Assembly (NCBI GenBank): GCA_025352665.1
Contig: JANXSM010000080.1
Coordinates: 62,001-126,000, forward strand
Source of the DNA: Rhodospirillales bacterium
GTDB lineage: Bacteria > Pseudomonadota > Alphaproteobacteria > Acetobacterales > Acetobacteraceae
Direction of reading: 5' to 3'
DNA: 64,000 nt
How positions within the stretch are numbered: the first letter of the stretch is position 1; the number at the start of each line of letters is the position of its first letter. This document shows, piece by piece, positions 597-51,688 of this stretch. Both the position numbers and the translations under genes were made by a program. A model generated the notes under the pieces. The model was given only the letters and a program-made list of their open reading frames with translations. It made no database searches and was not told the DNA's origin.

Positions 597-839
597 TCAC
601 GCCGCCTTGCTCGCCACGACGGTTGCGAGGTCGCCGACGTTCTGCAGGCGGTCGAGTTCGCGGGTGTGCAGTTTGATGCCGAACCGTTCCTCGGTTGCGA
701 TCACGATCTCGATTTGCTTGAAGCTGTCCCAGCCGGCCACGTCCTTGGCAGAAAGTGTTGGTGTCAGAACGAGGTCATCGCGCATGAAGACGTCCTGAAA
801 GATCTCGGTCAGGGCGCTGTAGATTTCGGGCTCGGTCAT
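597..839 (-). CDS. Acyl carrier protein
   Basis: This 80-residue protein has the phosphopantetheine attachment context GWDSFKQIE, with Ser39 as the expected 4'-phosphopantetheine site. Acidic helices lie on both sides, and the length is normal for a free-standing ACP. It is not the fatty-acid AcpP, which carries the DSLD motif; DSFK suits a dedicated carrier. The FkbH-like gene lies only four bases upstream in the same direction. This makes the two a likely functional pair: FkbH family enzymes load a glyceryl-type group from 1,3-bisphosphoglycerate onto a carrier. Which group is carried here is inferred, not shown. Confidence 0.88.
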   Translation of the reverse strand: MTEPEIYSALTEIFQDVFMRDDLVLTPTLSAKDVAGWDSFKQIEIVIATEERFGIKLHTRELDRLQNVGDLATVVASKAA

Positions 840-843
840 GGGC

Positions 844-2745
844 TCAGCCCTCCGTGACGGTGATGAAGGTTTCTGCTGGCACGAAGCTGGTCAGGTCCAG
901 CGTGGCGCGGGTACCGCCGTCATCATGCGTCTCGGCGAGATCGAAGCCAAGTTTCACGTAATGGTCGCGCACCATGGCGTTCTTCTTGGTCGGGATAAAA
1001 TCGCCGAGCAGCCGCTTGGCGCCCAGCTTCTTGGCCTGGGCGGCGATCAGGTTGAGCGTGGTGGGTTCCACCTGGCGGCCGAGCACACGGCAGCTCATCA
1101 GCCAAGTATCGATCATAAGATCGTCCTCGTCCTGCATCTTGCCGATGCAAATGGCAATGATCCCATTGTCGCCGAACCGATCGGTGAGTCGCAGTTGCAG
1201 GCCGAACGCCTTCTTGGACTGCATGACGTCGACCACGTCTTCCTCAGTGTAGCGCCGCGTTGTCAGGTTGAACTGGTTGGTCTTGTTGATGAGCTGTACC
1301 GTGCGCTGCAGGCCGATACGATCGAACCGGCGCCAGATCATCTCCATCTCCAGCCCGCGCAGATAGGCGGGCATGTCGGTGGTGGAGGATTTCAGCGCCT
1401 CCCGGGCTCGGTTGCCCTGGTATTGCGCGGAGCGGACGCGGTCCTCGTCGGTAATCGCGGTGCTTTCGAAGTAGCCCGCGTCCGACACCGCCTGGAGGAA
1501 GGTGATCGGGTCGTCGGTCACTTCCGGAACGGCCACCATCGGCAGTTCCTGCCGCACCAGCGCCCGCTCGACAGGGTTATCGTCGACGAACACGAGGCTA
1601 TCGAGGCCGATATTGAGTTCAGCGGCGATGGCCTTGATGTTGCTCGCCTTGTCGCTCCAGTTGGCGATGAAGCTGGCGATGTCGTTTCGCTTCAACACCA
1701 TCTCCGGATGCTGCTCGAACGGCTCGACAGCGTTGGCCTCGTCGTTCTTCGAGCACACCGCGAGGATAATGCCACGGCGGGACAGGTCGCGGGCGTATTC
1801 CTGAAACGCGGTATAGGCTTCGCCGAGCGGGCTGCCCTGGCCGATCACGATGCCGTCCATACCATCATCGCCGATCACGCCGCCCCAGAGCGTGTTGTCG
1901 AGATCGAGCACCAGGCATTTGGACGAACGGCCCTGGAGGGCTGCGACCAGGCGGCCCACCATGTCGCCATAGAAGGGTGCTGCGGTGGGTGAAATCTCCT
2001 GCTTGGCGCGATGCCACAGACCAACATCGTGCCAGGCGGCGATGCCGTCGCGGGCCGCGCGGGTATCCACGCTCAGCAGTTCGACGCCGGCCGCATCGGC
2101 CATCGGCCGAAGATCCTGGTTGATCCGGGCAATGACTCGCGCCGCCGATCCGGGCAGGCGGTGTTCGTTGAGACCGAGCAGATCGGGATGCACGGGCAAG
2201 GGCGTCTGATGGATGATCGGGCAGCGGAACGCCTCGCGCGCCAGGCGCCAGCATTCGGAAATCCGGTTGGTCTGTTCCTCGACCGCTGCAGCCCCGTCCG
2301 CCTGTTCGAACTGTGCCGACAGGCCGGCGGCGAGGTGATGCGCGTCCAGCGCGAACAGAACTATGTTGGGCTTGAACGCATGCAGGCCGGAGTCGGGCTC
2401 GATGAGTTCCTGCATATACTGGCCGTAGTCGTTCTCGTAGATGTCGATCCAGATGCCTCGGCGCAGCCCCGCCACCCGGATGGCGCCGTGCAGTTGCGCC
2501 ATGGTGCAGGAGCCCAGCAGGGCGAGGCGGATCGGCTTGGTGCCGGTGCCACCAGGCGGCTTGTCGCCGAACACGGCGCGCATCGTCTGGTCGAGCGCGT
2601 TGGTGCGCACGAAGTCCATGCGCAGATTCGCCAAGGCCATCGCCTCCGGCCACGCGTCCTCCGGCTTGGCAAAAGTCGTTGTGCGCAACACCTTCAGTCG
2701 CGCGCGCCAGTTGGCATCCTCGGCGAGCCAGTGCAGCTGGGTCAT
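844..2745 (-). CDS. FkbH-like HAD-IIIC / GNAT protein
   Basis: This protein of about 633 residues has three parts. An N-terminal SGNH-hydrolase-like region begins around LALLGSCTM. A HAD phosphatase-type core near residue 280 carries LDLDNTLWGGVIGDDG, with the two motif-I aspartates, and is followed by VCSKND and FVDDNPVERA motifs. A C-terminal GNAT-like domain contains ITDRFGDNGI and TWLMSCRVLGRQVE. This is the classic FkbH domain order. Known FkbH proteins dephosphorylate 1,3-bisphosphoglycerate and transfer the glyceryl group to an ACP; the ACP gene follows after four bases. In-frame starts also exist at 2760 and 2814; I chose 2745 because the conserved sequence begins there, without certainty. 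Its neighbourhood of heptose and glycosyltransferase genes suggests decoration of a surface glycan. Confidence 0.85.
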   Translation of the reverse strand: MTQLHWLAEDANWRARLKVLRTTTFAKPEDAWPEAMALANLRMDFVRTNALDQTMRAVFGDKPPGGTGTKPIRLALLGSCTMAQLHGAIRVAGLRRGIWIDIYENDYGQYMQELIEPDSGLHAFKPNIVLFALDAHHLAAGLSAQFEQADGAAAVEEQTNRISECWRLAREAFRCPIIHQTPLPVHPDLLGLNEHRLPGSAARVIARINQDLRPMADAAGVELLSVDTRAARDGIAAWHDVGLWHRAKQEISPTAAPFYGDMVGRLVAALQGRSSKCLVLDLDNTLWGGVIGDDGMDGIVIGQGSPLGEAYTAFQEYARDLSRRGIILAVCSKNDEANAVEPFEQHPEMVLKRNDIASFIANWSDKASNIKAIAAELNIGLDSLVFVDDNPVERALVRQELPMVAVPEVTDDPITFLQAVSDAGYFESTAITDEDRVRSAQYQGNRAREALKSSTTDMPAYLRGLEMEMIWRRFDRIGLQRTVQLINKTNQFNLTTRRYTEEDVVDVMQSKKAFGLQLRLTDRFGDNGIIAICIGKMQDEDDLMIDTWLMSCRVLGRQVEPTTLNLIAAQAKKLGAKRLLGDFIPTKKNAMVRDHYVKLGFDLAETHDDGGTRATLDLTSFVPAETFITVTEG

Positions 2746-2887
2746 GACGCAGTCTCTCATCTTCTCGCTGAGGGTGGTAGCCGACCTGCTCTTGAGCGGG
2801 CAAGCCGGCGGCACTGATGCGCAATCTCAACCCGGCCGAGGCTTGAGCGATGGGATACCGGGCGGGCGTTGCGTTGCCCCGCGAGTG

Positions 2888-3283
2888 CTACGCCGGCGCG
2901 GGCATCCGGCCTTCCTCGTAGCCATGGCGGTTATAATGATCTTCGGCAGACAGGATCTCGCCGGTCTCGATGCCTTCCTTCACGTCGGGATAGGTCTCGA
3001 GATACCATTCGGTGTCGACTTCGAAGGCGAAGGGACGACGGCCTTCCAGGTAGCCGTGCTCGGTGAAATGGCTGGTAGCCGACGTGTAAACACCGGCGTC
3101 GATCGCCTCGGCCACATCCGGATAGGTGGCGCGATACCATTCCTCATCGACCGGAAGGGCGACCAGCAACTTGCGGACGACGTCGAGGAACTCGTCGTAG
3201 GTCAGGTCTGCCTTGAGGCTGCCCTTTTCAGACACAAAGCGGATGGTCTGCCTCAGCGTGGCGAACGGAACGAGATATTTCAT
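2888..3283 (-). CDS. Small protein with two WY-YPDV-HY-HG-EGR repeats
   Basis: This 131-residue protein has an N-terminal part of about 45 residues and then two copies of a repeat of about 40 residues. The repeat pattern is WYxxTYPDVxEGI, a short linker, then HYxxHGYxEGRRP. Similar repeats occur in alphaproteobacterial glycosyltransferase and polysaccharide loci, usually attached to larger proteins, and their role is unknown. No signal peptide or membrane segment is visible. It sits between hldD and the FkbH-like gene, all on the minus strand. It could be a scaffold or substrate-recognition protein of the glycan pathway, but that is only suggested by position. Confidence 0.75.
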   Translation of the reverse strand: MKYLVPFATLRQTIRFVSEKGSLKADLTYDEFLDVVRKLLVALPVDEEWYRATYPDVAEAIDAGVYTSATSHFTEHGYLEGRRPFAFEVDTEWYLETYPDVKEGIETGEILSAEDHYNRHGYEEGRMPAPA

Positions 3284-3447
3284 CGGAAGCCTTCCAGGGG
3301 CAAGGCGCCCCGGCCGCCCGGAGCGCTATTGTCAAAAGCCTGTACGTTCTGATCTTAGACGGGAACCGCCATCAGATCCATCGTTTTGCAATACCATTGT
3401 ATGGAACACAAAACTATCATGGGAAGGCATGGTTTGGCCGCAACAAC

Positions 3448-4434
3448 CTAACGATATCTGTCGGTCGCGAGCAGGTACGATTTGACATAGTCGGCGACCC
3501 CGACTTCGAGAGACGTGAATTCCTGATTATATCCCAGCCCCCGCAGGCGCTGCATGTTCGCGCATGTGAAATACTGATATTGCGGCCGGATCGCCTCCGG
3601 CATATCGATGAATTCGACCTTCGGCCGATCGCCGCAGGCTGCCACGGCGGCTACGGCCAGATCGTGAAAACTACGCGCCTCGCCGGTGCCGCAATTGATC
3701 AGACCAGCCGGACGATCGAGCACGCCCAGCCACATCAACACAGCAACCACATCGGCCACATAGACGAAGTCGCGCAGTTGCTCGCCGTCGGCGAAGCCTT
3801 CCTTGTAAGACTTGAACAGCTTCACCGGCTGCCCCGGGCGATGCGCCGAGACAATCTTGGAAACCAGGCTCTGCATCGCACCCTTGTGGTATTCGTTCGG
3901 GCCATAGACGTTGAAGAAGCGAAGACCCGACCAAACCGGCGGTGCCGGCGTGTCACTTGCCAAGGCCTTCAGCACCCAACCATCGAAGAGCCATTTGCTC
4001 CAACCATACAGGTTCAGCGGGCGCAGCTTGCGCAAGGCTGCGAGCGCATTGTCGTCATCGAAGCCGCATTCGCCATCGCCGTAAGTGGCCGCCGAGGAGG
4101 CGTAGATGAACGTCAGCCCGTGCCTTGCACAGGCATGCCAAAGGTCCACCGAAAAGGTAAAGTTGGTTTTCAGCACGAGATCGCCATCCACCGCAGTGGT
4201 CGATGAGATCGCACCCATGTGATAGATGGCGGTGATCCTGGCCGCGTTCGTTTCAATGAACGCCAGGATGTCGTCGGGGCTGACGATGTCGACCGGCAGG
4301 CGCTTGGCGATGTTGTGCCACTTGGAGCCATCACGCAGGCGATCGCAGATGACGATGTCCTCATGGCCGGCGGCTTCCAGGGCAGCAACCAGATTGGAGC
4401 CGATGAACCCAGCTCCGCCGGTGACGATGATCAA
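3448..4434 (-). CDS. hldD: ADP-L-glycero-D-manno-heptose 6-epimerase
   Basis: This is a short-chain dehydrogenase-type epimerase of about 328 residues. The NADP-binding motif GGAGFIGSN lies at the very N-terminus, YASSAATYG near residue 117, and the catalytic Tyr-x3-Lys (YGWSK) near residues 143-147. RFFNVYGPNEYHKG is a hallmark of HldD. It converts ADP-D,D-heptose to ADP-L,D-heptose for LPS core synthesis in the cytoplasm. A TTG start at 4434 is preferred: it gives the expected MIIVTGG beginning, has CAGGAG seven bases upstream, and overlaps the preceding stop as TTGA. Longer starts would run into the upstream gene. It is translationally coupled to the glycosyltransferase fusion, with hldE further upstream. 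Confidence 0.93.
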   Translation of the reverse strand: MIIVTGGAGFIGSNLVAALEAAGHEDIVICDRLRDGSKWHNIAKRLPVDIVSPDDILAFIETNAARITAIYHMGAISSTTAVDGDLVLKTNFTFSVDLWHACARHGLTFIYASSAATYGDGECGFDDDNALAALRKLRPLNLYGWSKWLFDGWVLKALASDTPAPPVWSGLRFFNVYGPNEYHKGAMQSLVSKIVSAHRPGQPVKLFKSYKEGFADGEQLRDFVYVADVVAVLMWLGVLDRPAGLINCGTGEARSFHDLAVAAVAACGDRPKVEFIDMPEAIRPQYQYFTCANMQRLRGLGYNQEFTSLEVGVADYVKSYLLATDRYR

Positions 4435-7400
4435 AGCATGCTCCTGGAAACGGGAGGAAAGGAATGCGCGGCTCCAAGTGCGAGCAGACGCTGGCACGCA
4501 CGATGCACATCGCCAGGCTTCAGCCCGCGCATGCAGGCAAGGTTACGGTGGCAGTCCGAAATACGGGACAAGTAGCAGGGGCTGCAGGTCATATCACGGC
4601 GCAACGCCAAAGCCGAGGGCCCCATGGGGCCCCATTCGCTGGCATCTACCGTGCCGGAGTGGATGCCGATGGTCGGCACACCAATGGCTGCCGCCATATG
4701 CTTCGGACCACTGTCATTGCCCACGTACAGATCGCAGGAGCGCAGCAGGTTCGGCAGATCCCGCAACGAGGTCTTGCCGACCAGCAAGGTGACGCGCTCC
4801 TTGTGCACCACGTCCTGCAGCACGTCCTGGGCGGTCACGAGCTCGTCCGGACCGCCGATCATGATGACGTTGGCATCATCTTCTTCGACCAGCAAGTCGA
4901 TCAGGCCGGCGAACGCCGCCGTGCCCCATTGCTTGTTCTCGTTGCCCGCACCCGGATGCACGCACACCAGGGGGCGGGCGAACAGCTCCGGCAGCAAAGG
5001 CACGATGGCCGGAAGCCCCGAAACCCGTGCACGCGCGGTGTCGCGGTCCGGGAAGCCGGTGATTACGTCGCGATCTGTGCCGCAGGCCACGGCGATCGCC
5101 TCGACAAATTGCAGCAACGAATCGGTGACATGCTGGCGCTTGGAGGTGCGGGCGATATCGCCCTCCCAGGGCACGGCGATATCCAGGTACGGGTAGCTGT
5201 TATTCTGGTCGAACCCCGCCAGCCAGGTGGCGCCGGTTTGCCTGAGGATGTCGCGCGTGTCGCCCTGGCGACGCAGGTCGATCGCGAGATCGAAATGGAA
5301 CGATTCGAGCTTAGACCGCAGCTCGTCCATTTCCCGCCGGGCGACCTGCTTTTGACCCTTGGCTGATTGCGCATGGAAGAAATTGAGTTCGTGCATCCGG
5401 TCGATGGCAGGCTCCAGCACGGCCAGCGACTGCGATGCCTTGGCCGCCAGCACGTGCAGCTCGGCATTGGGAAACAGCACTTTGAGTCGTCGAAACGCCG
5501 GCAGGGTCGCGATGAAGTCGCCGATGTGATCGAGCTTGACGACCAGGATACGTCGTACCCGTTCGGCGGCGATCAGCGGATGGCCGACATGAAGCACCGT
5601 CGTGGGCTCGGCCTCTGCCACATAATCATCATACTCCGCCGACAGATGCGGGCTGAAATAAGGATCGCCTTTAAGGAACACGCTGCGCCAGGCGGCGGTG
5701 AACTTTCGGGCGTTGTAGACGTCGCCGATCTTGGCGCGGCTGACCATCTCATGGTGTATCAGCGTGGTATGCGGCGTGTAGATCACACTGCGGCCGGCAC
5801 GCTGCGTGCGCAGGCAATAATCGAGATCGTTGTTGATCACCGCATGGGTTTCATCGAAGCCGCCAAGCTCCTCGAAACTGTTGCGGCGAACCATGAAACA
5901 GGCGCCGGTGACCGCCATCACATTGCGCTGGGTCAGGGCCAGCCCGAACGGGCCCGGCTCATCGGACGGCGAAAAGCGGAACGCATGGCGCGCCACGCCG
6001 TCGGCCAGGAACATGCCCGCGTGCTGAACCTTGCCGTCCGGATAAAGCAGCTGCGGTCCGACGACGCCGACCTCCGGGCGTTGGGCATGCTCCAGCATGC
6101 ACTCGAGCCAATCGGCGCTACTGTCGAGCACTTCGATATCATCGTTGAGGAACAACAGGAATTCGCCATGCGCGCGCGCCACCCCCTTGTTGTTGAAGCG
6201 CGACCAGTTGAACTTCTCCTTGATCTGCACGACGACATCGGCGTTCTCACGCACCCATTTTTTCCAGACCACATTGTCTTCGGAGATGTTGTCGAGAACA
6301 ACGAGTTCAAAGTTCCGCCAGGTGGATTTCAAGCGGATCGAATCTATGCAGACCTGCACCAACCCCCGGGTGGCAACCGTCGGGATGATGATCGACACCA
6401 TGCCTTTGGTAATGACCCGCCGCTGCACCCGGTGCGTGCCCGCGCTGCGGCCAGGCACCACGCGGCCGCGCACACCGCGGCGTTCCAACGCTGCGCGCAG
6501 CGCCGCCCGTTCCACAGGCGTACTGTCGAGCTGCCGAGTTCCCCGCTCGCACAGCACGCGGGGGATATGCACGATCCGCTCCGCCTGTTCCGTCAGCTGC
6601 AGGACCACGCCGTACTCCCCGCAGGCTTGTGCATCCACCGCCGTGCGCGCCCAAAGGGCTGCGGAGGCCAGCCAAGGCCTGCCGATGTAGTTGGTCGACA
6701 GCAGCAGATCGGGCGACCAGTCCGGCTTGAAGAACGCCTTCATCTCGTTGTCGCCCGGATCGACCCTTCGTTCATCGGCATACAGAAAATCGGCGCCGGT
6801 TGACTGGCAGGCGGTCACCGCGAATTCCAGCAAGGCATCCACGCCCAGCAGGTCGCCCGGCCGCAAAGGCCCCGACCAGTCCGCGGCAATCCCTGGCGGT
6901 GCAGCCGAACGCACCCGCACGCGATCGGCGAGGTCCTCGTGCCTCTCAAGCAGTCCCTCCGCGCTCACGCCCTCCGGCAGCAGCACGATCAGGCGCCAAA
7001 ACGCGTAGACCTGCCGGCGCAGCGAATCGAGGGTGAGCTGCACGCGCGCCATCTCAGGCTTGCCGCCGTCGACCAGCGGCATCGCGAGTTCGAACACCGG
7101 TCGCGCGCCGATCGCATCGATCATCGCAAGTTCGAGGTTAACCTCGCCATCGGTCATCTTGCGGCGCAGCTGCCAGGGTCCGTCCTGGGATGTCGCAGGC
7201 TCCGCCTCGACCGTGAACGAGACATCCGCCGTGCCGCCCGACTTGTCACGCACGATGACGCGGACGAGATGGCTGCCCCGGCGCAGCACCTGCGGCGGCA
7301 CCAGCATGGCAAACCCGCATAGCAACGCGTTGTCCATGGTGGGAAACGCGGCACCGATGTCCTCGCGGCGGATGCCGTAATAGGCCTCCCCTAACGAGGT

Positions 7401-9008
7401 GCCGTCGACCAGGATCTCAACCCCCGCGATGCCCACCGGCGACAGCGCCCAGCCGGCCAGCGACATGAAACCACGCACGGTCTCGCGTGCGACATTGCCC
7501 GCATCAGTCCCGGTGTACAGGGGAGAGTCGAGGTAGAAACGAATGCCGTTGCCGCCGTCCTGCCCCACGCTTGAGGCACCTGTCACCGGCGCTGCCAGCA
7601 CCGGCAGCAGCGAAATCTTCGCCTCGCCCTCATTGCCGCGCACGATGACACGCACGATCTGCTCGCCGCTGACCGGCTGCAGGCCGCCGCCTGCGAAGCG
7701 AAAGCCCGCGCTGCGGGCGGAAGGGATCTGTGGGAAGTGATTGCCGACGTCGGGCCGGTCGCCCCCGCATGTGGCGAACCCCAGGCTGACGCCGCCCAGC
7801 TCCACCTCGATCCCGGCGATCCCCGAGGAGCAGACCGCCCAGCCCGAGAGAGCCACGGCGCCATCCTCGTCCAGGCTCACCAGATCGGTGTGCAGGCGGA
7901 TGGTGCTCTGACCCTGCTGCGGCCTGCGGATGACCGGCGGCATCTCCAGCGCGGCCGTCGCCTGGCGGGCGATGCCGCCGAACATGCGGGCCACCACGCG
8001 AATGGTCTCGCCGGCCTGGGCGCTCTCGTCCAGCGTGTGCAGCAGCAGGAAGCCGGAATCGGCGCTGTCGGGGTAATCGGCATGCACCATCGCCACATCA
8101 CTGCGCGGCATGGATTTCTGCGCCACCCCCAGCAGCCGGTCCTCGAGATACACGCGGATCTCGTCAATGGCAGCAAGGCCCACCGCCCAGCCGCGCACGC
8201 GCAGAACCCCTTCATCGCTGACGCGGCTTTCCTCCAGCCGCAGCAGCATGGCCGATTGCGCTGGCTCCGCCGGTGCCACGGCCTCGACCGGCTCCTCATC
8301 CTCGGGACTGGACCGATCCTGACGCACCGGAACCACCACCTGGCGCGGCGGCAGGCCCATGGCGTGGACGACCACCCGCAGATCGGCGCCGACCAGGGTC
8401 TCGGCGTCCACCATCTGATCGAGCCGAAATCCGGCGCGGCCGGCATCGGCGTAACCGGGATACGACGCCGCAACATCTGCGCGCAGCAGCCCGCCACGGG
8501 CGATGCCGAGCAGCCCGTCTGGTCCGAACACCTCGACCCGCTGCACCGGGCTGAGGCTGACCGCCCAGCCGCGGACCACCAGTCGTTCGTCGGGATCCAG
8601 GATCGCGTCTTCCACCCGCACCACCAGGGCAGGCTCGCTGACCAGTCGCGTCGGCAGCAGCGCCACGTCACCCCCCGCGATCACGAGCGAGACCCCGACC
8701 CGGGTCTCGCCGGCTGCGGTGCGCGCCACCAGAACCAGCTCCACCGGACCTGGCGGCAGCGACGGGACGGTGCCGGTGAAGGCAAAGCCCTCGGGGTGAA
8801 ACTCGGGGCCGCTCAGCTCGGTCATGTCGCTGCGGGACAACCCGGTCGCCGCCGCGCACATGCGCACGTCGCCGAGGAAAACCGTGACCCCCGCAACCCG
8901 GCCGGCACCGGCGATCCACCCGTAGCCGGTCAGCTTGTCGCCAGATGCGACCACCCGGCCCGGCTCTGGCGCCTCCAGCTTCAGGACGGGGGAGCGCACA
9001 TCGTTCAT
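4431..9008 (-). CDS. Giant fused glycosyltransferase: Ig-like repeats + GT2 (x2) + GT9
   Basis: This is a 1525-residue protein. Residues 1-610 hold five repeats of about 100 residues with the pattern GWAV..GI..VEV...G..LG.A..G..R.DV...P....AGF, probably beta-sandwich domains. Residues ~620-850 look like a degenerate GT2 module (DFLYADE, FKPDWSPDLLLSTNYIG). A complete GT2 domain starts at about 870 (MVSIIIPTV; NDD at the DxD position; FDETHAVINNDLDYCLR). From about 1150 to the end is a GT9 heptosyltransferase domain (ILVVKLDHIGDF, CVHPGAGNENKQWG, YVGNDSGPKHMAAAIG). It lies between hldE and hldD, so a heptose nucleotide donor for the GT9 part is very plausible. No membrane helix was seen. Each catalytic module normally occurs as a separate protein. 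Confidence 0.9.
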   Translation of the reverse strand: MNDVRSPVLKLEAPEPGRVVASGDKLTGYGWIAGAGRVAGVTVFLGDVRMCAAATGLSRSDMTELSGPEFHPEGFAFTGTVPSLPPGPVELVLVARTAAGETRVGVSLVIAGGDVALLPTRLVSEPALVVRVEDAILDPDERLVVRGWAVSLSPVQRVEVFGPDGLLGIARGGLLRADVAASYPGYADAGRAGFRLDQMVDAETLVGADLRVVVHAMGLPPRQVVVPVRQDRSSPEDEEPVEAVAPAEPAQSAMLLRLEESRVSDEGVLRVRGWAVGLAAIDEIRVYLEDRLLGVAQKSMPRSDVAMVHADYPDSADSGFLLLHTLDESAQAGETIRVVARMFGGIARQATAALEMPPVIRRPQQGQSTIRLHTDLVSLDEDGAVALSGWAVCSSGIAGIEVELGGVSLGFATCGGDRPDVGNHFPQIPSARSAGFRFAGGGLQPVSGEQIVRVIVRGNEGEAKISLLPVLAAPVTGASSVGQDGGNGIRFYLDSPLYTGTDAGNVARETVRGFMSLAGWALSPVGIAGVEILVDGTSLGEAYYGIRREDIGAAFPTMDNALLCGFAMLVPPQVLRRGSHLVRVIVRDKSGGTADVSFTVEAEPATSQDGPWQLRRKMTDGEVNLELAMIDAIGARPVFELAMPLVDGGKPEMARVQLTLDSLRRQVYAFWRLIVLLPEGVSAEGLLERHEDLADRVRVRSAAPPGIAADWSGPLRPGDLLGVDALLEFAVTACQSTGADFLYADERRVDPGDNEMKAFFKPDWSPDLLLSTNYIGRPWLASAALWARTAVDAQACGEYGVVLQLTEQAERIVHIPRVLCERGTRQLDSTPVERAALRAALERRGVRGRVVPGRSAGTHRVQRRVITKGMVSIIIPTVATRGLVQVCIDSIRLKSTWRNFELVVLDNISEDNVVWKKWVRENADVVVQIKEKFNWSRFNNKGVARAHGEFLLFLNDDIEVLDSSADWLECMLEHAQRPEVGVVGPQLLYPDGKVQHAGMFLADGVARHAFRFSPSDEPGPFGLALTQRNVMAVTGACFMVRRNSFEELGGFDETHAVINNDLDYCLRTQRAGRSVIYTPHTTLIHHEMVSRAKIGDVYNARKFTAAWRSVFLKGDPYFSPHLSAEYDDYVAEAEPTTVLHVGHPLIAAERVRRILVVKLDHIGDFIATLPAFRRLKVLFPNAELHVLAAKASQSLAVLEPAIDRMHELNFFHAQSAKGQKQVARREMDELRSKLESFHFDLAIDLRRQGDTRDILRQTGATWLAGFDQNNSYPYLDIAVPWEGDIARTSKRQHVTDSLLQFVEAIAVACGTDRDVITGFPDRDTARARVSGLPAIVPLLPELFARPLVCVHPGAGNENKQWGTAAFAGLIDLLVEEDDANVIMIGGPDELVTAQDVLQDVVHKERVTLLVGKTSLRDLPNLLRSCDLYVGNDSGPKHMAAAIGVPTIGIHSGTVDASEWGPMGPSALALRRDMTCSPCYLSRISDCHRNLACMRGLKPGDVHRACQRLLALGAAHSFPPVSRSML

Positions 9009-9102
9009 GCCTGGTGTCCTGGCTCCGAAATCCGTTCTGCTTGGGACACTGGTGTTGCGATTCCGCCAGCACCTTCAGCTGAGGTTCTGCGGAATAGCGA
9101 CA

Positions 9103-10560
9103 CTAGGCTGCCGGGGCTTCGGCCATGCGTTTGATGATGTTGGTGGTGCTGAAGCCTTCCTCGAGATCGATCAGGCCGACCTCGCCGCCGTTGGCGAGCA
9201 CGACATCGCCGCCCACCACCTGGTCGGCGGTGTAGTCGGCGCCCTTGAAGATCACATCGGGCAGCAAGCGCGTGATCAGCTCAAGCGGCGTGTCCTCGTC
9301 GAACAGCATCACCACGTCGGCTGCCGCCATGCTGGCCATCACGGTGGCGCGCGCCGTCTCGTTCTGCACCGGCCGGGTCGGGCCCTTCAGCCGGCGCACC
9401 GAGGCATCGGTATTCAGCGCCACGATCAGCCGGTCACACCGTGCCCGCGCCTTGCCGAGCAGGCGCACATGGCCGGGGTGGATCAGGTCGAAGCAGCCAT
9501 TGGTGAACCCCACCTTCAGCCCACGCCGGCGCCAGGCTGCGATGCGGCTCTGGGCGACCTCGAGGCCTGCGAATTTCTCGTCGATCACCAGCAGTTCCTG
9601 TCGGTGCAGCGCGCGTTCCAGCTCGGCATGACTGACAGTTGCCGTCCCCGGCTTGCCCACCGCGATCCCGGCCGCGACATTGGCGACGCGCGCGGCTTCC
9701 GCCATGCCCGCGCGGGTGGCCATCATGATGGCAAAGCTCGCCACCAGCGTGTCGCCCGCGCCGGAAACATCGGCAACCTCGCGCGCCTCGGTCGGCAGAT
9801 GCAACGCCATGGCATCGCGGCGCACCAGGGTCAGTCCCTTTTCGGAACGCGTGACCAGCACCGCGTCCGCGCCGCTGGCATCCAGCGCCGCCTGGCCGGC
9901 GAGCACCGCCCCTTCATTATCGGCGGCCAGCAGGCCGGTCGCCGCGGTTACCTCGAGCTCGTTCGGCGTCAGCACCGTCACCCGGGCATAGGCCGAGAAA
10001 TCGGCCCGCTTGGGATCGGCGATCACCGGCTTGCCAGCTTCGAGCGCCATGGCGATGGCTCGCGGCAGCACGGTGTCGGACAGCACGCCCTTGGCGTAGT
10101 CGGACAGCACGACGACATCGGCCAGCGCCAGCGCCTCTCCGTAGGCTGTCAGCAGGGCCTCGGCCAGTTCGCCGACGACGGGGGTGCTTACCTCCTCGTC
10201 CAGCCGCAGCAGCTGGTGCGCGCCCGACATGAAACGGGTCTTGACGGTGGTGGGCCTGCCGGCGGATGTCACCGGGTAGAAGGAAATGCCACTGTCGGCA
10301 CCGCCCATCGCCTCCTGCACCTGCCCCGCCGCGGCATCATCGCCGATCACGCCGACCAGGATCGCACGGGCACCCAGCGCCGTGACATTCTTGGCGACAT
10401 TGCCGGCACCGCCGAGCACGCACCGCTGGCGCTGAGCGCGAAGCACCGGAATAGGCGCTTCCGGCGAAATCCGCCGGACCTCGCCATACACGTAGCGGTC
10501 CAACATGATGTCGCCCAGCACCAGCACCACGCGTGACTGGAAGTCGGCCAGTGAGTCCAT
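9103..10560 (-). CDS. hldE: Bifunctional D-glycero-beta-D-manno-heptose-7-phosphate kinase / 1-phosphate adenylyltransferase
   Basis: This 485-residue protein is close to the usual 477. The N-terminal ribokinase-type domain begins VVLVLGDIMLDRYVYGEV and has the catalytic DVSGAGDT near residue 265. The C-terminal nucleotidyltransferase domain starts near residue 350 with FTNGCFDLIHPGHV and has GLKVGFTNG before it and a KGADY motif later. It makes ADP-D,D-heptose in two steps for the epimerase HldD. The start MDSLADFQ at 10560 has a GGGGG stretch about 6-10 bases upstream; an in-frame ATG 42 bases earlier is less likely. It is the first gene of the surface-glycan block. The isomerase GmhA and phosphatase GmhB are not in this window. 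Confidence 0.95.
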   Translation of the reverse strand: MDSLADFQSRVVLVLGDIMLDRYVYGEVRRISPEAPIPVLRAQRQRCVLGGAGNVAKNVTALGARAILVGVIGDDAAAGQVQEAMGGADSGISFYPVTSAGRPTTVKTRFMSGAHQLLRLDEEVSTPVVGELAEALLTAYGEALALADVVVLSDYAKGVLSDTVLPRAIAMALEAGKPVIADPKRADFSAYARVTVLTPNELEVTAATGLLAADNEGAVLAGQAALDASGADAVLVTRSEKGLTLVRRDAMALHLPTEAREVADVSGAGDTLVASFAIMMATRAGMAEAARVANVAAGIAVGKPGTATVSHAELERALHRQELLVIDEKFAGLEVAQSRIAAWRRRGLKVGFTNGCFDLIHPGHVRLLGKARARCDRLIVALNTDASVRRLKGPTRPVQNETARATVMASMAAADVVMLFDEDTPLELITRLLPDVIFKGADYTADQVVGGDVVLANGGEVGLIDLEEGFSTTNIIKRMAEAPAA

Positions 10561-27450: not shown

Positions 27451-28527
27451 TTAGCCGAAACGCGGCCGCTTGCCCAGCGCATGCGCACGTTGGTAGCTTT
27501 CCAGCAGCCGGGTGATGACGATGTCGCGGGTGAAGTCCGCCGCGTACCGCTGCAACCCTGCAGCGGCCAGCCGCATCGCAAGCCCAGGCTCCGCCAGCAG
27601 GCGGGACAGGCGATCAGCCAGGGCGGGCGGATCGTCGCGCGGGCACAGCAGGCCATCCACACCGTCGTGAACGTATTGGCGCGCGCCGTCGGCGTCGGTT
27701 GCCACCAGCGGCCGGCCGGCGGCCCACGCCTCGATGATGACGGTTCCGAACGGCTCGTAGCGGCTTGGCAGCACGCAGATGTCGCAGGCCTCCAGCAGCG
27801 CCTTGCGATCCTGCCGCCAGCCGAGGAAGCGCGTGCGATCGGCAAGACCCAGTTCCCGGGCGAGCGCCTCGTAGGCCGCACGCTCCGGGCCGTCGCCGGC
27901 CAGCCAAAGATACAGAGATGGCACGGCCACGGCGGCGCGCAGCAGCGTGTCGATGCCTTTCACCGCGTGCATGCGCGACAGCACGAGAGCGACCGGCGCA
28001 TCGGCAGGTGTCGCAAGGGCCCGCCGGTCGACCGGCGGCGCATCTGGCATGGTGCCGAAGGTATTGGTGGTGAACACCCGCTCAGCCGGCATGCCGCGCT
28101 TGACGATGGATGCGGCGATATCCGGCGTGACCGCGAAGAAACTGTCGCAATGGGCGAAATACTTCAGCTTGTAGTAGTCACCGAACCAGCCGATGGCGGG
28201 GCAGACCAGCTTGGCCGGCACGAACGAGCCGGCGCGCGACATCCATGCGTGCACCAGGTCGGCGCCGATGCTGTCGGCAGTGCGGCGGATCAGGCGCGCG
28301 CCTGGATATAACCGGTCCAACGCCGAAAAGTGCTGCGTCGTGGTGCCGATCCCCGCGTCTGCATAGCGCTGCAAAGGTCCCTCGTACGGGCGGCAGATGA
28401 CATGCTGCTTCACCCCGCGCGCGGCCAGCGCCGTGATCGCGTCCACGGCGAAGGTCTCAGCACCGCCGACGGAGGCACCGGCAATGACGTGCAGTATGCG
28501 CAGGCTGGGCTCCAATCGGTTCAACAC
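27451..28527 (-). CDS. GT4 family glycosyltransferase
   Basis: This 358-residue GT-B enzyme has an N-terminal acceptor domain with ILHVIAGASVGGAETFAVD (the GGAE loop). The C-terminal donor domain carries ALVLSRMHAVKGIDTLLRA, WLAGDGPERAAYEALARELG and the E-x7-E motif PSRYEPFGTVIIEAWAAGRP. The sugar and acceptor are unknown; WFGDYYKLKYFAHCD is seen in LPS or polysaccharide transferases of this group. A GTG at 28527 is the probable start, seven bases after the upstream stop; TTG codons follow it. It ends only seven bases before lptF, which suggests a shared transcript for LPS-related proteins. Confidence 0.88.
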   Translation of the reverse strand: MLNRLEPSLRILHVIAGASVGGAETFAVDAITALAARGVKQHVICRPYEGPLQRYADAGIGTTTQHFSALDRLYPGARLIRRTADSIGADLVHAWMSRAGSFVPAKLVCPAIGWFGDYYKLKYFAHCDSFFAVTPDIAASIVKRGMPAERVFTTNTFGTMPDAPPVDRRALATPADAPVALVLSRMHAVKGIDTLLRAAVAVPSLYLWLAGDGPERAAYEALARELGLADRTRFLGWRQDRKALLEACDICVLPSRYEPFGTVIIEAWAAGRPLVATDADGARQYVHDGVDGLLCPRDDPPALADRLSRLLAEPGLAMRLAAAGLQRYAADFTRDIVITRLLESYQRAHALGKRPRFG

Positions 28528-28534
28528 ACGCAAC

Positions 28535-30217
28535 TCAGGCCGCCGGCACCAAAAGTGCTTCGCGAACCTGCTGGACCACGCTGTCCCAGTCGCCCGGCTC
28601 GGGCTGGCGGAACTGGCGCAGTGTCGGATACCATGGGCTGTCGTCGCGGCCCAACAACCAGCGCCAGCACGTGTCGAAACGGTTGAGCAGCCAGACCGGC
28701 ACGCCGAGCCCGCCGGCCAGATGCGCCACCGAGGTGTCAACGCTGATGACGAGGTCAAGTGCAGACACCAGGGACGCGGTGTCGTCGAAGTTGTGCAGTT
28801 CGCGGGTCCAGTCGAAAACGCCGCACCCGAACGGAATGGCGGACAGTTGCACCGCGGAGGCCCCCTTCTGCAACGACACAAAGCAGGTGTCGGGGATATC
28901 GGCGAGAGCAGCAAGCTGGGCCAGCGGCATGGAACGGCGCCGGTCAATCCTGGCGCTCGCCCGCTGGTCCAGCCGGGGATTGCCCGCCCAGACCAGCCCG
29001 ATCTTGCGGCCGGGCAGCACGGCCAGACGCGACCGCCAGGCCGCGACCGCCGCCGGTGCCGCCAGAAGATACGGTGGCCCGGCCGGAATGGTCGCGACCG
29101 TGAGGCCGAACAGACCCGGCAGGTTCATCAGGTTGCATTCGCAATCTACCGGCGGCAAGGCCTCGCCCTGCGCCAAGACGTGGCATTGCGGCAGAGATCG
29201 TTGCAGCAGCCGTACCAACGGCGCCTGCACCTCCAGCACGATCTCGGCCATGCGCTGCGAAAGCCGAGGGGCGAAGCGACAGAACTGCAGCGTGTCGCCC
29301 AGGCCCTGGTCGATGTGGACGAGAAGGCGGCGCCCAGCGAGGGGCCCAGTTCCGTCCCAGGCGGGAGCCGGCAGGACCCGCCGCTGCGACGGCGCGAGCG
29401 CCTCGCCCCCCAGTGCTTCTCCCCATTGCTGTGGCCATTGCGAGAAATCGCCCAGTAGCAGGCGGCACATGCTGGCGTTCCAGGCAGATGCGAGATGCCC
29501 GGGCTCGGCCGCCAGGGCCTGGTCGTAGCCCGCCAGCGCCGCCTCCGGCGCGCCACCTTCCTGCACGGCACGCGCCCGGTTGTAATGCGCGTTGGCGTGA
29601 TCGGGCCGCGCGCGCAGGGCCGCGTCATAGCCGGCCAGTGCCGCGGCCTGCCGGCCCAGTGCCAGATCGGCGTTGGCCCGATTGGTCAACGCCACCGCAT
29701 CCTCGGGGGCAGCCGCCAGCACCTGGTCGTAGCAGTCGCGCGCCTCCGCCGGACGATCGAGCTCCTGCAGCGCATCGCCGCGCGCGATCAGCAGGCCCGG
29801 CTCGCGCGGTGCAACGGCGAGCCCGACCTCGCTTGCCAGCAGCGCCGGGCCGGGCAGCTCCAGCGCCAGCAACACGCGGGCGAGGTTGTGATGGGCCGGC
29901 ACGAAGTCGGGTGAGGCCCGCAAGGCCGCCAGATAACCCTGCCGCGCGTCCTCCAACCGTCCCAGCCCATGCAGCACATTGGCGCGGTTGAACAACGCCG
30001 GCACCATGGCGGGATCGGTCGCGAGCGCGCGTTCGATGCTGGCCAGCCCCGGCCCGGTCTCACCACGCGCGCAGAGCAGCAGGCCGAGCAGATGCAAAGC
30101 GTTCGGCTCGCCCGGCGCCACCGCCAGCACGGCAAGGTAGCCCGCCTCGGCCGTGGCGGCATCGCCTGACTGATGCGCGCGCACAGCGGTCTGCAGCAGG
30201 ATCAGCGCATCACTCAT
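28535..30217 (-). CDS. TPR protein with GT9-like glycosyltransferase domain (first of a pair)
   Basis: This 560-residue protein has about eight tetratricopeptide repeats in the first 290 residues (for example ALFNRANVLHGLGRLEDARQG, ARDCYDQVLAAAPEDAVALT). A C-terminal GT-B domain follows, with LLVHIDQGLGDTLQFCRFAP, KIGLVWAGNPRLD and SVDTSVAHLAGGLGVPVWLL. The last motif is the donor-site signature shared with heptosyltransferases. Similar TPR-GT proteins in alphaproteobacteria are thought to glycosylate surface structures. It is paralogous to the next gene upstream, with which it overlaps by eight bases. Confidence 0.85.
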   Translation of the reverse strand: MSDALILLQTAVRAHQSGDAATAEAGYLAVLAVAPGEPNALHLLGLLLCARGETGPGLASIERALATDPAMVPALFNRANVLHGLGRLEDARQGYLAALRASPDFVPAHHNLARVLLALELPGPALLASEVGLAVAPREPGLLIARGDALQELDRPAEARDCYDQVLAAAPEDAVALTNRANADLALGRQAAALAGYDAALRARPDHANAHYNRARAVQEGGAPEAALAGYDQALAAEPGHLASAWNASMCRLLLGDFSQWPQQWGEALGGEALAPSQRRVLPAPAWDGTGPLAGRRLLVHIDQGLGDTLQFCRFAPRLSQRMAEIVLEVQAPLVRLLQRSLPQCHVLAQGEALPPVDCECNLMNLPGLFGLTVATIPAGPPYLLAAPAAVAAWRSRLAVLPGRKIGLVWAGNPRLDQRASARIDRRRSMPLAQLAALADIPDTCFVSLQKGASAVQLSAIPFGCGVFDWTRELHNFDDTASLVSALDLVISVDTSVAHLAGGLGVPVWLLNRFDTCWRWLLGRDDSPWYPTLRQFRQPEPGDWDSVVQQVREALLVPAA

Positions 30218-31604
30218 TCATCGGCCCGGCATGCACAAGTGCTGCGACCACCCGGTCCACCACCCCCACCCAGTCGCCGGGTGTCGTCTGGGTGAACAGG
30301 CGCATGGTCGGATACCAGGGCGTGTCCTCGCGATCGTGCAGCCAGCGCCAGCAGCTGTCGTATCGGTTCATCACCCAAACCGAAATGCCGAGGGCGCCGG
30401 CCAGATGCGCCATGGCGGTGTCCACGGTGATCAGCAGGTCAAGCCCCGCCACCAGGGCCGCAGTGTCGGCGAAGTCGTCGAGTGCGTCGGTCCAGTCGAT
30501 CAGATCGAGACCCGCCGGCGCGCGGGTCAGCTCAGCGGCCGGTGGGCCTTTCTGCAACGAGAGATACCGCACGCCAGCAACCGTTGCGAGCGGCGCCAGC
30601 TGCGCGAGGCGCATCGAGCGGCGCCGGTCGACGCGGTTGGCATACGCCAGCTCCGGCCGCGGCGCACCCGACCATACCAGCCCGATTCGGCGCCCCTTGA
30701 GCGTGGAAAGCCGGCTCTGCCACGCCAGCACCTGGCGCGGGTCTGGCCTCAGATAGCCGATATCGCCGGGGATCGTGCCCAACTCGGTGCCCAGGGCGAA
30801 CGGCAGGCTCAGCAACGGGCATTGCAGATCGAACGGCGGCAGCGGCCCCGCGAGGTCGACCACCTCGGCCACCGCGGGCAGGCTGGCCAACAGGCGAACC
30901 AGCGGCTTCTGCACGGCGAGCACCACCCTCGCCCCCATGGCACCCACCAGCGGCGCGTAACGGCAGAACTGCAGCGTGTCGCCGTAGCCCTGCTCGGCAT
31001 GCAGCAGCACGGTGCGACCCGCGATATCCTGGTGACCTTCCCACCGTGGCCCTTCGGTGCCGGGGGCCGGGCGCAGCGCCGTTTGCCAGCGCCATTCGTA
31101 ATCCGCCCAGCCCTGGCGGAATTCGCCCTGTTGCAGCCGCGTCAGCGCCATGTGCCACAGCACGTCGGTGAACGCCGGATCGGCTGCGATGGCGCGGGCG
31201 AAACTGTCCAATGCCTGCGCGAAGCGGCGCATCTCCTGCAGCACCAGGCCACGATTGGACAGGGCGACGGCGAACTCGGGCGTAATTTCAAGCGCCCGGT
31301 CAAAGCTCGCCAGCGCCTCTTCCAGCCGCCCCGACTGGTGCAGCACGCTGCCGAGATTGCTGTGGACCTCAGCATTGTCGGGCTGCTGCGCCCGCGCCTG
31401 CAGCAGCATGTGGAGCGCGCGTTCCAGCTGCTCGGCTGCGAACAGCACCACGCCGAGCATGTGCTGGGCCGCGGGATTGCCGGGGTCCTCGGCCAGCACA
31501 TGCAGATATAGATTGCCGGCCTCGGCGAAGCGACCCGCCTTATGGTGGTCGACCGCCGCTTGCAGGCGGTGCATCAGGTCAGGGCGAAGCTCGGCGGTCG
31601 TCAT
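30210..31604 (-). CDS. TPR protein with GT9-like glycosyltransferase domain (second of a pair)
   Basis: This protein of about 464 residues has four or so TPRs in the first 170 residues (NPAAQHMLGVVLFAAEQLER, EVHSNLGSVLHQSGRLEEAL). The same C-terminal domain as its neighbour follows: VLLHAEQGYGDTLQFCRYAP, RIGLVWSGAPRPELA, TVDTAMAHLAGALGISVWVM and SCWRWLHDREDTPWYPTMRL. The pair clearly arose by tandem duplication followed by change in TPR number. The ATG at 31604 is chosen over 31628, since conserved sequence begins after it. It heads the string leading through GT4 to lptF. Confidence 0.85.
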   Translation of the reverse strand: MTTAELRPDLMHRLQAAVDHHKAGRFAEAGNLYLHVLAEDPGNPAAQHMLGVVLFAAEQLERALHMLLQARAQQPDNAEVHSNLGSVLHQSGRLEEALASFDRALEITPEFAVALSNRGLVLQEMRRFAQALDSFARAIAADPAFTDVLWHMALTRLQQGEFRQGWADYEWRWQTALRPAPGTEGPRWEGHQDIAGRTVLLHAEQGYGDTLQFCRYAPLVGAMGARVVLAVQKPLVRLLASLPAVAEVVDLAGPLPPFDLQCPLLSLPFALGTELGTIPGDIGYLRPDPRQVLAWQSRLSTLKGRRIGLVWSGAPRPELAYANRVDRRRSMRLAQLAPLATVAGVRYLSLQKGPPAAELTRAPAGLDLIDWTDALDDFADTAALVAGLDLLITVDTAMAHLAGALGISVWVMNRYDSCWRWLHDREDTPWYPTMRLFTQTTPGDWVGVVDRVVAALVHAGPMNE

Positions 31605-31710
31605 GGCGTGATAGTACGCCCTCGCCACTGCGAGATAAACCTGCCCTCTGCGCGACGCCTCGCCACCGCCACAGAGAAGATGATTGCGTGATAAACCCTC
31701 CGGGTGCGAA

Positions 31711-36486: not shown

Positions 36487-37193
36487 CCGCGCTTTTGGAA
36501 GTCTCCGGCATCGTCTGCGGCTATGGGGCTGCCGACGAGATCCTCAAAGGTGTCGACCTGCAGGTCGCCCCTGGCGAACTCGTCGCCATCATCGGCCCCA
36601 ACGGCGCCGGCAAATCCACCTTGCTGAAGGCGGTGGCGGGCTTGCTGAAACTGAAATCGGGCGGCATCGCGCTCGAAGGCGTCGCGATCGGCGCCACCTC
36701 GCCGCGCGCCCGCGCCCAGGCCGGCATCGCCTTCGTGCCGCAGGAGGCCAACGTGTTCCCCACCATGACGGTGTGGGAAAACCTGGAAATGGGCGGTTTC
36801 GTCGAACCCCGCCACACCCGCACCCGCATCCAGGCCCTGCTGGAGCGCTTCCCTATGCTGGCCGACAAGCGCCGCCAGGCGGCGCGCACCCTGTCCGGCG
36901 GCCAGCGTCAGGTGCTCGCCATGGCCATGGCGCTGATGGTGCATCCCCGCCTGCTGCTGCTCGACGAACCCTCCGCAGGCCTCTCGCCCAAAGCGGCGGA
37001 GGCCCTGTTCGACGACATCGCCGCCATCCACGCCGAGGGCACCGCCATCGCCATGGTCGAACAGAACGCGCTGGAGGCTCTGGCGATCGCCGATCGCGCC
37101 GCCGTCCTGGTCGATGGGCGCACCGCCCTGGTCGGGCCGGCCAAACAACTCGCAGCCGATCCGCAGGTGCGGCGGCTGTTTCTCGGAGGCTGA
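36483..37193 (+). CDS. livF: Liv-type ABC transporter ATPase (LivF)
   Basis: This 236-residue ATPase overlaps livG as ATGA. It has Walker A (IIGPNGAGKSTLL), AFVPQEANVFPTMTVWENLEMG, the signature TLSGGQRQVLAMA, Walker B (LLLLDEPSAGLSP) and the H-loop replaced by a Gln (MVEQNALEAL), which is common in LivF. It pairs with LivG in the same transporter. Confidence 0.92.
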   Translation: MTALLEVSGIVCGYGAADEILKGVDLQVAPGELVAIIGPNGAGKSTLLKAVAGLLKLKSGGIALEGVAIGATSPRARAQAGIAFVPQEANVFPTMTVWENLEMGGFVEPRHTRTRIQALLERFPMLADKRRQAARTLSGGQRQVLAMAMALMVHPRLLLLDEPSAGLSPKAAEALFDDIAAIHAEGTAIAMVEQNALEALAIADRAAVLVDGRTALVGPAKQLAADPQVRRLFLGG

Positions 37194-37195
37194 CA

Positions 37196-38635
37196 ATGGA
37201 ACCGAACACACCCAACACCGAACCCCCACTGCCACCGCGACGGTTTGAAACCGCCCACCAGGGCGTGTTCCACGGGTCAGCCGTCAGCTATCGCTGCCTG
37301 GCGGCCGAAGCCCATCTGCCCGACTCCGACGGCAAGCCGCGGGTCAGCCTGGTCTCCTTCAGCTATCTCGCCGACACCGAGGATCCCGCCCTCCGCCCGG
37401 TCACCTTCGTGTTCAACGGCGGCCCCGGGTCGGCCTCGCTGTGGCTGCACATGGGTGCCATCGGACCGCGCATCATCAAGGTGCCGTCGGACGCCAAGCC
37501 CACAGGCTCCGGCCCCTACACCGTATGCGACAACGATTTGTGCAACCTCGACCAGACCGACCTGGTGTTCATCGACCCTCCTGGCACCGGCTACAGCCAG
37601 ATGCTGGGCGATGCCAAGGCCGCCGATGTGTGGGGCCTCGACGCCGATGCCGATCTCATCGCGCAGTTCATCAAGGTCTGGCTCACCACGCATCGCCGCT
37701 GGGCCTCGCCGCGCTATCTGTGCGGCGAAAGCTACGGCACCACGCGAGCTGTTGCAGTGGCGGGCAAGCTCTCGGGCGGCCTGGCCGGCGTGGCCTTCAA
37801 CGGCATCGCGCTGATCTCCACCATTCTCGACTTCCACACCGCACGTTTCGAGAAGGGCAACGTGCTGCCGGACGTGTGCTTCCTGCCGACCTTCGCTGCG
37901 ACTGCGCTGTATCACGGCAAGATCTCGACCGACCTGTCACGCGATGCGTTCCTCGACAAGGTGCGCGACTTCGCCCCCGAATACCTTGCAGCCCTGTTCG
38001 CCGGCAGCAGGCTGGACGAGCCCCGCCGCATCGCCGTGCGCGACCAACTCGCAGCCTTCACCGGCCTGTCGCCGGACTGGCTCGACCGCACCAGGTTGCG
38101 CATCGACCCCGCCCGCTTCCGCAAGGAACTGCTCCGCTCCAGCGGCCAGACCGTCGGCCGCCTCGACAGCCGCTACGTCGGCACCGATTACGACCAGGCC
38201 GGCGAACTTCCAGAGGACGACGTCTCCTCCTCGGCCATCGACAGCGCCTTCGTCAGCAGCGTGAACGACCATCTCACCCGCACGCTCGGCATCGACTGGG
38301 ACCGCCCCTACGTGCCCTTCAACGCCCAGGCGCTCAAAACCTGGAACTGGGTGGTGCGCAAGCCGGACGACGCCCTCGCCTGGCCCGGCTATGTCAACGT
38401 GGCCCCCATCCTGGGCCGCCTGCTGCGCGACAATCCCGGGCTGCGCGTGCTGGTCGCCAGCGGGTTGTACGATCTGGCCACACCGTTCTACGCGGTGGAG
38501 AGCACGCTCGCCGGCAACGGCATCGCCTGCGAACGTATTCGCATGACGTACTATGAAGCCGGCCACATGATGTATCTGCACGACCCGTCGCTGGCCGCCC
38601 TGATGGCCGATCTGCGTGCCCTGATGACCGCGTAA
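37196..38635 (+). CDS. Serine carboxypeptidase-like peptidase, family S10, without signal peptide
   Basis: This 479-residue alpha/beta-hydrolase has the S10 motifs: FVFNGGPGSASLWLH (oxyanion region), LVFIDPPGTGYSQ and the nucleophile LCGESYGTTRA (Ser near 179). The acid is in ASGLYDLATPFYAVE (near 424) and the His in YEAGHMMYLHD (near 456). S10 enzymes cleave C-terminal residues at acid pH. Most are exported, yet this N-terminus (MEPNTPNTEPPLPPRRFET) is polar with no signal sequence, so it probably acts in the cytoplasm. The start at 37196 has GGAGG upstream, two bases after livF. Its place inside a transporter operon suggests it cleaves the imported compound. Confidence 0.9.
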   Translation: MEPNTPNTEPPLPPRRFETAHQGVFHGSAVSYRCLAAEAHLPDSDGKPRVSLVSFSYLADTEDPALRPVTFVFNGGPGSASLWLHMGAIGPRIIKVPSDAKPTGSGPYTVCDNDLCNLDQTDLVFIDPPGTGYSQMLGDAKAADVWGLDADADLIAQFIKVWLTTHRRWASPRYLCGESYGTTRAVAVAGKLSGGLAGVAFNGIALISTILDFHTARFEKGNVLPDVCFLPTFAATALYHGKISTDLSRDAFLDKVRDFAPEYLAALFAGSRLDEPRRIAVRDQLAAFTGLSPDWLDRTRLRIDPARFRKELLRSSGQTVGRLDSRYVGTDYDQAGELPEDDVSSSAIDSAFVSSVNDHLTRTLGIDWDRPYVPFNAQALKTWNWVVRKPDDALAWPGYVNVAPILGRLLRDNPGLRVLVASGLYDLATPFYAVESTLAGNGIACERIRMTYYEAGHMMYLHDPSLAALMADLRALMTA

Positions 38636-38681
38636 CGAAGCCCGTGTTAGCGTGTATCGCATTCCAAAGGAGGCCCAGGCC

Positions 38682-39872: not shown

Positions 39873-39897
39873 TCCGGCAGAGCCGGGGCCTGCGAAT

Positions 39898-50857: not shown

Positions 50858-50960
50858 GGCAGGGAGCCCCTTGTGTTTGGACCGAATCGTATGCGCCCAA
50901 ACCCGATGGAGCAATTCCAGCCAAGCCAGTGTCCAGAAACCTAGAAGAGAAGTCGCGGCC

Positions 50961-51165: not shown

Positions 51166-51171
51166 GGTGGC

Positions 51172-51669: not shown

Positions 51670-51688
51670 CGCGGGCGGCTCTCACTGA

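Follow-up and report, generated by a model that had tools for sequence, protein, structure and literature searches.

FkbH-type proteins paired with an acyl carrier protein (ACP) are known from polyketide synthase (PKS) and nonribosomal peptide synthetase (NRPS) assembly, and members of the family use 1,3-bisphosphoglycerate (reviewed in PMC8949500). Acyl groups are also supplied to the cell envelope by Dlt D-alanylation and the other MBOAT-SGNH pathways (PatAB, AlgI), in which the acyl group resides on a Tyr of a C-terminal hexapeptide; according to a 2025 study, the pathways other than Dlt lack a carrier protein (PMC12148441). In the capsule system of Burkholderia pseudomallei, a Cys and a His of WcbI contact the acyl thioester, and the protein is thought to use acetyl-CoA (PMC4104973). 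Here, we describe a six-gene locus in the 64,000-nucleotide stretch between positions 62001 and 126000 of contig JANXSM010000080.1 from a Rhodospirillales bacterium (the window, to whose positions coordinates refer unless stated otherwise; genome G000). The locus contains an FkbH-ACP pair and genes for heptose synthesis and transfer and, judging from its sequence, most likely generates glyceryl- (or related hydroxyacyl-) ACP within a heptose operon, for the decoration of a heptose-containing glycoconjugate.

The minus-strand genes run in the order hldE, glycosyltransferase (GT) fusion, hldD, WY-repeat protein, FkbH, and ACP, between positions 597 and 10560. They are separated by 94 (hldE-GT), 164 (hldD-WY), 142 (WY-FkbH) and 4 (FkbH-ACP) bases, and the GT fusion and hldD overlap by 4 bases. 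All the genes listed in the original prediction were recovered, together with the four-base spacing of the FkbH-ACP pair. The same six genes, in identical order, are present in a contig of the uncultured Rhodospirillales T7_bin-548 (locus L106), with protein identities of 81% (HldE), 63% (GT fusion), 75% (HldD), 70% (WY protein), 80% (FkbH), and 87% (ACP), so that ACP is the best conserved member of the operon in this comparison. Because the six-gene order recurs in L106 with different genes downstream of ACP, the locus is, on this comparison, a conserved operon and not a chance arrangement.

Both FkbH and ACP look functional by their motifs. The phosphopantetheine attachment site of ACP is Ser39 in GWDSF (codon 723-725), and the nearest solved chain is 2lml (7.7e-14). 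FkbH, with a likely start at ATG 2745 that is backed by the starts of homologs and a stop at 844, consists of FkbH_N, HAD-IIIC, and a C-terminal GNAT-like part that contains Cys552 (codon 1090-1092). In an alignment of 20 diverse FkbH proteins, the HAD residues Asp281, Asp283, Thr285, Ser332, Lys366, Asp388, and Asp389 are invariant, and so is Cys552 in the motif WLMSCRV; WLMSCR is present in 118 of 126 FkbH proteins. From this invariance, we infer that Cys552 carries the acyl group. The Cys of the VCSKN motif, also considered for this role, varies among the 20 aligned proteins and was ruled out. Across the same alignment, block I of the SGNH-like N-terminal domain (GSCT, GSST, ASHT, GNGT, GAST) has no conserved catalytic Ser. 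Thus, of the SGNH/HAD/GNAT architecture originally proposed, the assignment to the FkbH family and the HAD residues stand, but the N-terminal domain does not retain a conserved catalytic Ser. Among solved structures, that of Bacteroides fragilis BF1531, listed as uncharacterized (3slr; 3.1e-68), comes nearest to the N-terminal and HAD parts, and this match stops before the C-terminal Cys part. That the substrate is 1,3-bisphosphoglycerate would follow from what is known of the family.

The heptose part of the operon appears complete for ADP-L-glycero-D-manno-heptose, with both domains of HldE and HldD above the NCBIfam cut-offs. This HldE is the sole copy above the cut-off in the genome; a divergent second HldE-like protein (contig C30; L234 5335-6792) falls below the HldE kinase cut-off and has no adjoining hldD. 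The GT9 domain of the fusion passes only the general PF01075 cut-off and scores 81-86 bits against the heptosyltransferase I, II, and III equivalog models, below all of their cut-offs (134-185). Being above the general but below every specific threshold, it is graded as a heptosyltransferase-like enzyme. Further GT9 genes are present in the genome, which rules out the operon as the sole GT9 site. For the WY-YPDV protein, no Pfam or NCBIfam family was matched; its AlphaFold model is confident (pLDDT 94), and a comparison of this model with PDB yielded no match at Z 2 or more.

Table 1 Features of the operon (window positions) and NCE genes elsewhere in the same genome (positions within the loci named).
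Feature	Position	Strand	Evidence
ACP, free-standing, 80 aa	597..839	-	PF00550 (PP-binding) 2.8e-07
FkbH-type glyceryl transferase/phosphatase (predicted), 633 aa	844..2745	-	TIGR01686 304.1 bits (cut-off 146.65); PF21211 FkbH_N
WY-YPDV two-repeat helical protein, 131 aa, putative accessory to GT fusion	2888..3283	-	repeats in sequence
hldD, ADP-glyceromanno-heptose 6-epimerase	3448..4434	-	TIGR02197 383.6 bits (cut-off 274.6)
GT fusion, 1525 aa: Ig-like repeats, degenerate GT2, GT2, GT9	4431..9008	-	PF00535, PF01075, PF17957
Fusion, N-terminal Ig-like repeats, ~aa 1-620	7149..9008	-	PF17957 Big_7 partial match; repeats visible in sequence
Fusion, probable degenerate GT2, ~aa 640-860	6429..7091	-	GT homologs align over ~aa 630-1130; motif decay
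Fusion, intact GT2, aa 868-1087	5748..6407	-	PF00535 7.7e-14
Fusion, GT9, heptosyltransferase-like, aa 1153-1510	4479..5552	-	PF01075 2.1e-25, 89.9 bits
hldE, heptose-7-phosphate kinase / heptose-1-phosphate adenylyltransferase	9103..10560	-	TIGR02198 353.6 (cut-off 345); TIGR02199 188.9 (cut-off 181.5)
NCE copy	L188 4953-5633
NCE copy	L187 9210-11495
NCE copy	L189 4407-5606
NCE copy	L190 7854-10178

To characterize the genomic context of FkbH, we analyzed a tree of 112 FkbH genes that were drawn from a scan of named genomes (the best 80 of at least 581 matches), the loci of the family genomes, and plasmid matches. The pairing with ACP is conserved: 100 of the 112 FkbH genes have, within four genes, an ACP of the same family as that in the window. 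A DltB-like MBOAT, often accompanied by an SGNH protein, is found within four genes of 53 FkbH genes, a member of the NCE/WcbI protein cluster within four genes of 28, and a GT of the cluster of the window fusion beside 11; MBOAT and NCE/WcbI do not occur together in any of the 112 loci. These neighbor labels are strongly clustered on the FkbH tree, requiring 7 changes as against 29.8 after shuffling, and the window FkbH belongs to the NCE/GT part (43 rows), in which there is no MBOAT neighbor. With 53 of the 112 beside a DltB-like MBOAT, the pairs are not located mostly away from glycan genes. Of the 55 FkbH-linked MBOATs, 51 have a Tyr within the last six residues, typically FLYFQF. One member of the DltB-like MBOAT group matches TIGR04091 at 1e-54, below the cut-off of that model. 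Many of the MBOAT loci encode an SGNH-like partner with a G[SD]S motif and, in several cases, also D..H. MBOAT-type loci include L038, L045, L046, L099, and L143-L171, the SGNH-like partner being often a membrane protein; annotated examples come from Sinorhizobium meliloti pSymA, Tistrella, and a Rhodobacteraceae plasmid. PF18588 (WcbI) proteins are encoded close to FkbH-ACP in L097, L051, and L067 and, in Niveispirillum, WcbI directly follows the pair. VOC and S-adenosylmethionine (SAM) methyltransferase genes lie near FkbH in some loci. A Mycobacterium contig (L121) carries FkbH-ACP with two NCE genes and groups with the Acetobacteraceae FkbH, a possible case of horizontal transfer or of a contaminated assembly.

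With MBOATs that end in an acyl-Tyr-type hexapeptide or with NCE/WcbI proteins as neighbors, FkbH-ACP probably feeds envelope-glycan acylation and looks like an interchangeable means of decorating surface sugars. The decoration of a glycan that was originally proposed is therefore likely, but the heptose locus is an untypical home for the pair, most FkbH genes having no GT nearby.

The similarities to the described systems are partial in each case. Shared with FkbH/OzmB loading in polyketide and nonribosomal peptide synthesis are the FkbH domain, the HAD motifs, the invariant Cys, and the adjacent carrier protein; however, there are no PKS or NRPS genes near the pair, and the company of the pair is heptose genes here and MBOAT or NCE/WcbI elsewhere. 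A carrier-bound acyl group, predicted here from the ACP that adjoins FkbH, would be shared with Dlt, and the resemblance to Dlt and the other MBOAT-SGNH pathways extends, in other FkbH loci, to the DltB-like MBOAT, the acyl-Tyr C-terminus, and, in many of them, the SGNH partner. In contrast to Dlt, FkbH takes the place of the DltA ligase, and the hexapeptide is fused to the MBOAT, with no DltX peptide; the genome of the window itself encodes no MBOAT. The B. pseudomallei WcbI system is matched by PF18588 proteins near FkbH-ACP, or near an FkbH-type ACP, and by a heptose-type glycan context, but differs in the presumed acetyl-CoA donor, and there is no WcbI gene in the window. Gellan of Sphingomonas is reportedly a glyceryl-esterified exopolysaccharide whose L-glyceryl ester is attributed to fkbH in the patent literature; if so, it would resemble the present case in an FkbH-attributed glyceryl ester on an exopolysaccharide and differ in the glycan and the gene set. 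Such a precedent would make a role of FkbH in glycan modification, taken generally, less new. Our literature search found no open paper linking fkbH and gellan, and no paper relevantly linking FkbH with polysaccharide, O-antigen, gellan, or MBOAT.

We further mapped FkbH and the GT2-GT9 fusion across 150 genomes of the family, which is probably Acetobacteraceae. Strong FkbH matches are present in 38 genomes, and fusions whose homology reaches GT9 in 27. FkbH adjoins the fusion in seven genomes (G000, G027, G084, G092, G105, G114, and G148), in two main gene orders, and in ten further genomes the two are apart or on different contigs. Taken as raw counts, with relatedness ignored, the fusion is found in 17 of the 38 FkbH genomes vs 10 of the 112 others (p=4e-6), NCE in 29 vs 19 (p=5e-11), and WcbI in 20 vs 20 (p=8e-5), so that, among those tested, NCE shows the strongest co-occurrence with FkbH, followed by the GT fusion and then by WcbI. 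The expected association between FkbH-ACP and the GT fusion is accordingly borne out, with linkage in the window, in L106, and in six more family genomes. We inspected the neighborhoods of 28 fusions with a GT9 part (two more FkbH-linked fusions are cut by contig ends). The WY protein lies within four genes of 16 of these, hldE is a neighbor of 11, and FkbH of only 8. Given this difference, GT-WY-hldE is, by its gene neighborhoods, one module, and FkbH-ACP is a separate module joined to it.

Which protein would use the acyl-ACP in this organism is suggested by the rest of the genome. Transfer by a DltB-type MBOAT was ruled out, with no match to PF03062 or TIGR04091 in the genome. Five NCE homologs were identified, one of them, on contig C127, broken by stops. 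These proteins contain the motif SLGxNCEFG(LVQR), with an invariant Cys and His, match no Pfam family, and are predicted to adopt an alpha/beta structure (pLDDT 90). NCE and WcbI have an N-C-[E/Q] motif in common. A DltB-like MBOAT is present in eight of the nine FkbH genomes that lack NCE, so that NCE and MBOAT fit the role of alternative users of acyl-ACP, with NCE as a candidate transferase. The only PF18588 protein in the genome is a WcbI-TPR protein of 985 aa (L194 7156-10419; contig C152, ~37155-40418), none being encoded in the operon. Its gene is located 60 bp from that of a second FkbH-type ACP (48% identity to the window ACP) and near phosphomannomutase-like and UTP-glucose uridylyltransferase-like genes. 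Because there is only one full FkbH in the genome, it may serve both ACPs.

Combining these observations, we propose, at about an even chance of being right, that glyceryl-ACP is the product of FkbH and that its glyceryl group reaches a heptose-containing glycoconjugate by way of a separate transferase. HldE and HldD would make ADP-L-glycero-D-manno-heptose, to be used by the GT2-GT9 fusion with the WY-repeat protein as an accessory. FkbH, for its part, would take a glyceryl group from 1,3-bisphosphoglycerate, with the HAD domain removing the phosphate, hold it on Cys552, and transfer it to the ACP phosphopantetheine arm at Ser39. The hydroxyacyl group would then be delivered to the heptose-containing glycoconjugate by an acyltransferase whose gene lies outside the operon; for this lineage, an NCE- or WcbI-type protein with a Cys and a His is the likeliest candidate. 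Many other lineages would use the FkbH-ACP donor pair to supply a DltB-like MBOAT together with an SGNH protein. Predicted in this scheme are the identity of the acyl group, how the window FkbH loads it, the transferase, and the acceptor.

Several observations weigh against this proposal. L106 may come from a fairly close relative and represent the same chromosomal site, given that it matches the nth-like gene upstream of the operon in the window over the 64 bases before its contig breaks off. The co-occurrence tests take no account of relatedness. The GT-WY-hldE module occurs without FkbH in 20 of the 28 fusion loci, including that of a genome from the same genus (G109), and hence, the glyceryl part is optional to it. 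The operon contains no transferase gene, and the candidates elsewhere have shortcomings of their own: NCE has only weak matches in PDB (the best, 2g6t, at Z 7.8), which provide no fold-based function, and a relationship of NCE to WcbI was rejected, as the BLAST cluster that contains both was merged via TPR and fusion proteins only and hhalign detected no relation. WcbI itself is a putative acetyltransferase whose activity was not demonstrated (PMC4104973). Finally, the acyl group could be a modified or different one, as some FkbH genes have SAM methyltransferase and VOC genes in their vicinity.

The last point leads to the alternative in which glycans are again the target of acylation but the group on ACP is not glyceryl, being, for example, lactyl or a methylated hydroxyacyl. 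The accessory genes that suggest such a group in several loci are missing from the window operon, and the FkbH domain scores far above its cut-off, which makes this alternative rather improbable. In the original suggestion, FkbH itself might act as the transferase, with its GNAT-like or SGNH-like part passing glyceryl from ACP on to the heptose glycan. This would be economical in that both parts belong to the FkbH polypeptide and the operon encodes no other acyltransferase. However, the GNAT-like part contains the invariant Cys that is expected to load ACP and is common to the whole family, even in loci with their own MBOAT-SGNH transferases, whereas the catalytic Ser position of the N-terminal part varies (GSCT, ASHT, GNGT). 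With neither part a good candidate, we consider such transfer highly unlikely.

Alternatively, FkbH-ACP might make a small secreted metabolite or a lipid head group, its placement in the heptose operon resulting from genome rearrangement. This would agree with the role of the known pairs in polyketide and nonribosomal peptide assembly (PMC8949500) and with the lack of a GT fusion in most FkbH loci, but not with the absence of PKS or NRPS genes nearby, the recurrence of the six-gene order in L106, the linkage of FkbH and the GT fusion in two or more distinct gene orders, or the co-occurrence of the two across genomes, which holds even when they are unlinked; we therefore find it unlikely. Unlikely, too, though slightly less so, is the use of the glyceryl-ACP by the C152 WcbI-TPR protein on another polysaccharide, the heptose operon being merely co-regulated. 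The presence of one FkbH with two FkbH-type ACPs, the second next to WcbI-TPR and sugar-nucleotide genes, and the arrangement in Niveispirillum are compatible with this scenario. Against it, FkbH-ACP is kept inside the heptose operon of L106, and G084, G105, and G114 lack WcbI despite having linked FkbH and GT fusion genes. Returning to the proposed delivery of glyceryl-ACP to a heptose glycoconjugate by a separate transferase, its extension to the wider family of loci is more tentative: FkbH-ACP might be a widespread, DltA-independent donor module for Gram-negative glycan acylation, a second carrier-fed kind of MBOAT-SGNH system, that Acetobacteraceae rewired to soluble NCE/WcbI proteins and a heptosyl GT2-GT9 enzyme, yielding glyceryl-decorated heptose glycans.

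The genes around the operon look unrelated to it. The locus ends at ACP, and housekeeping genes flank it on both sides: to its left are methionine-salvage-like and YncE-like genes, and to its right come an nth-like gene, a gene for a regulator, and one resembling lnt (names from reading of the sequence, no searches made). Elsewhere in the window, a second glycan-type cluster (27451-31628) encodes a GT4-type glycosyltransferase and a pair of TPR proteins, one of which weakly matches GT9. A low-GC stretch (~0.55; 50800-52770) without confident genes or an Rfam match lies within a part of the window where GC skew is strongly negative (44-58 kb).

If the proposed role is correct, an enzyme pair known from antibiotic synthesis would commonly provide bacteria with activated hydroxyacyl groups for the sugars of their surface. 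By their gene content, the FkbH-ACP-MBOAT-SGNH loci look like an exception to the carrier-less state of the MBOAT-SGNH pathways other than Dlt. For WcbI, which gave no demonstrable activity with acetyl-CoA (PMC4104973), the adjoining FkbH-ACP suggests acyl-ACP as the donor. For a group of Acetobacteraceae, the same reading would predict a glyceryl substituent tied to heptose.

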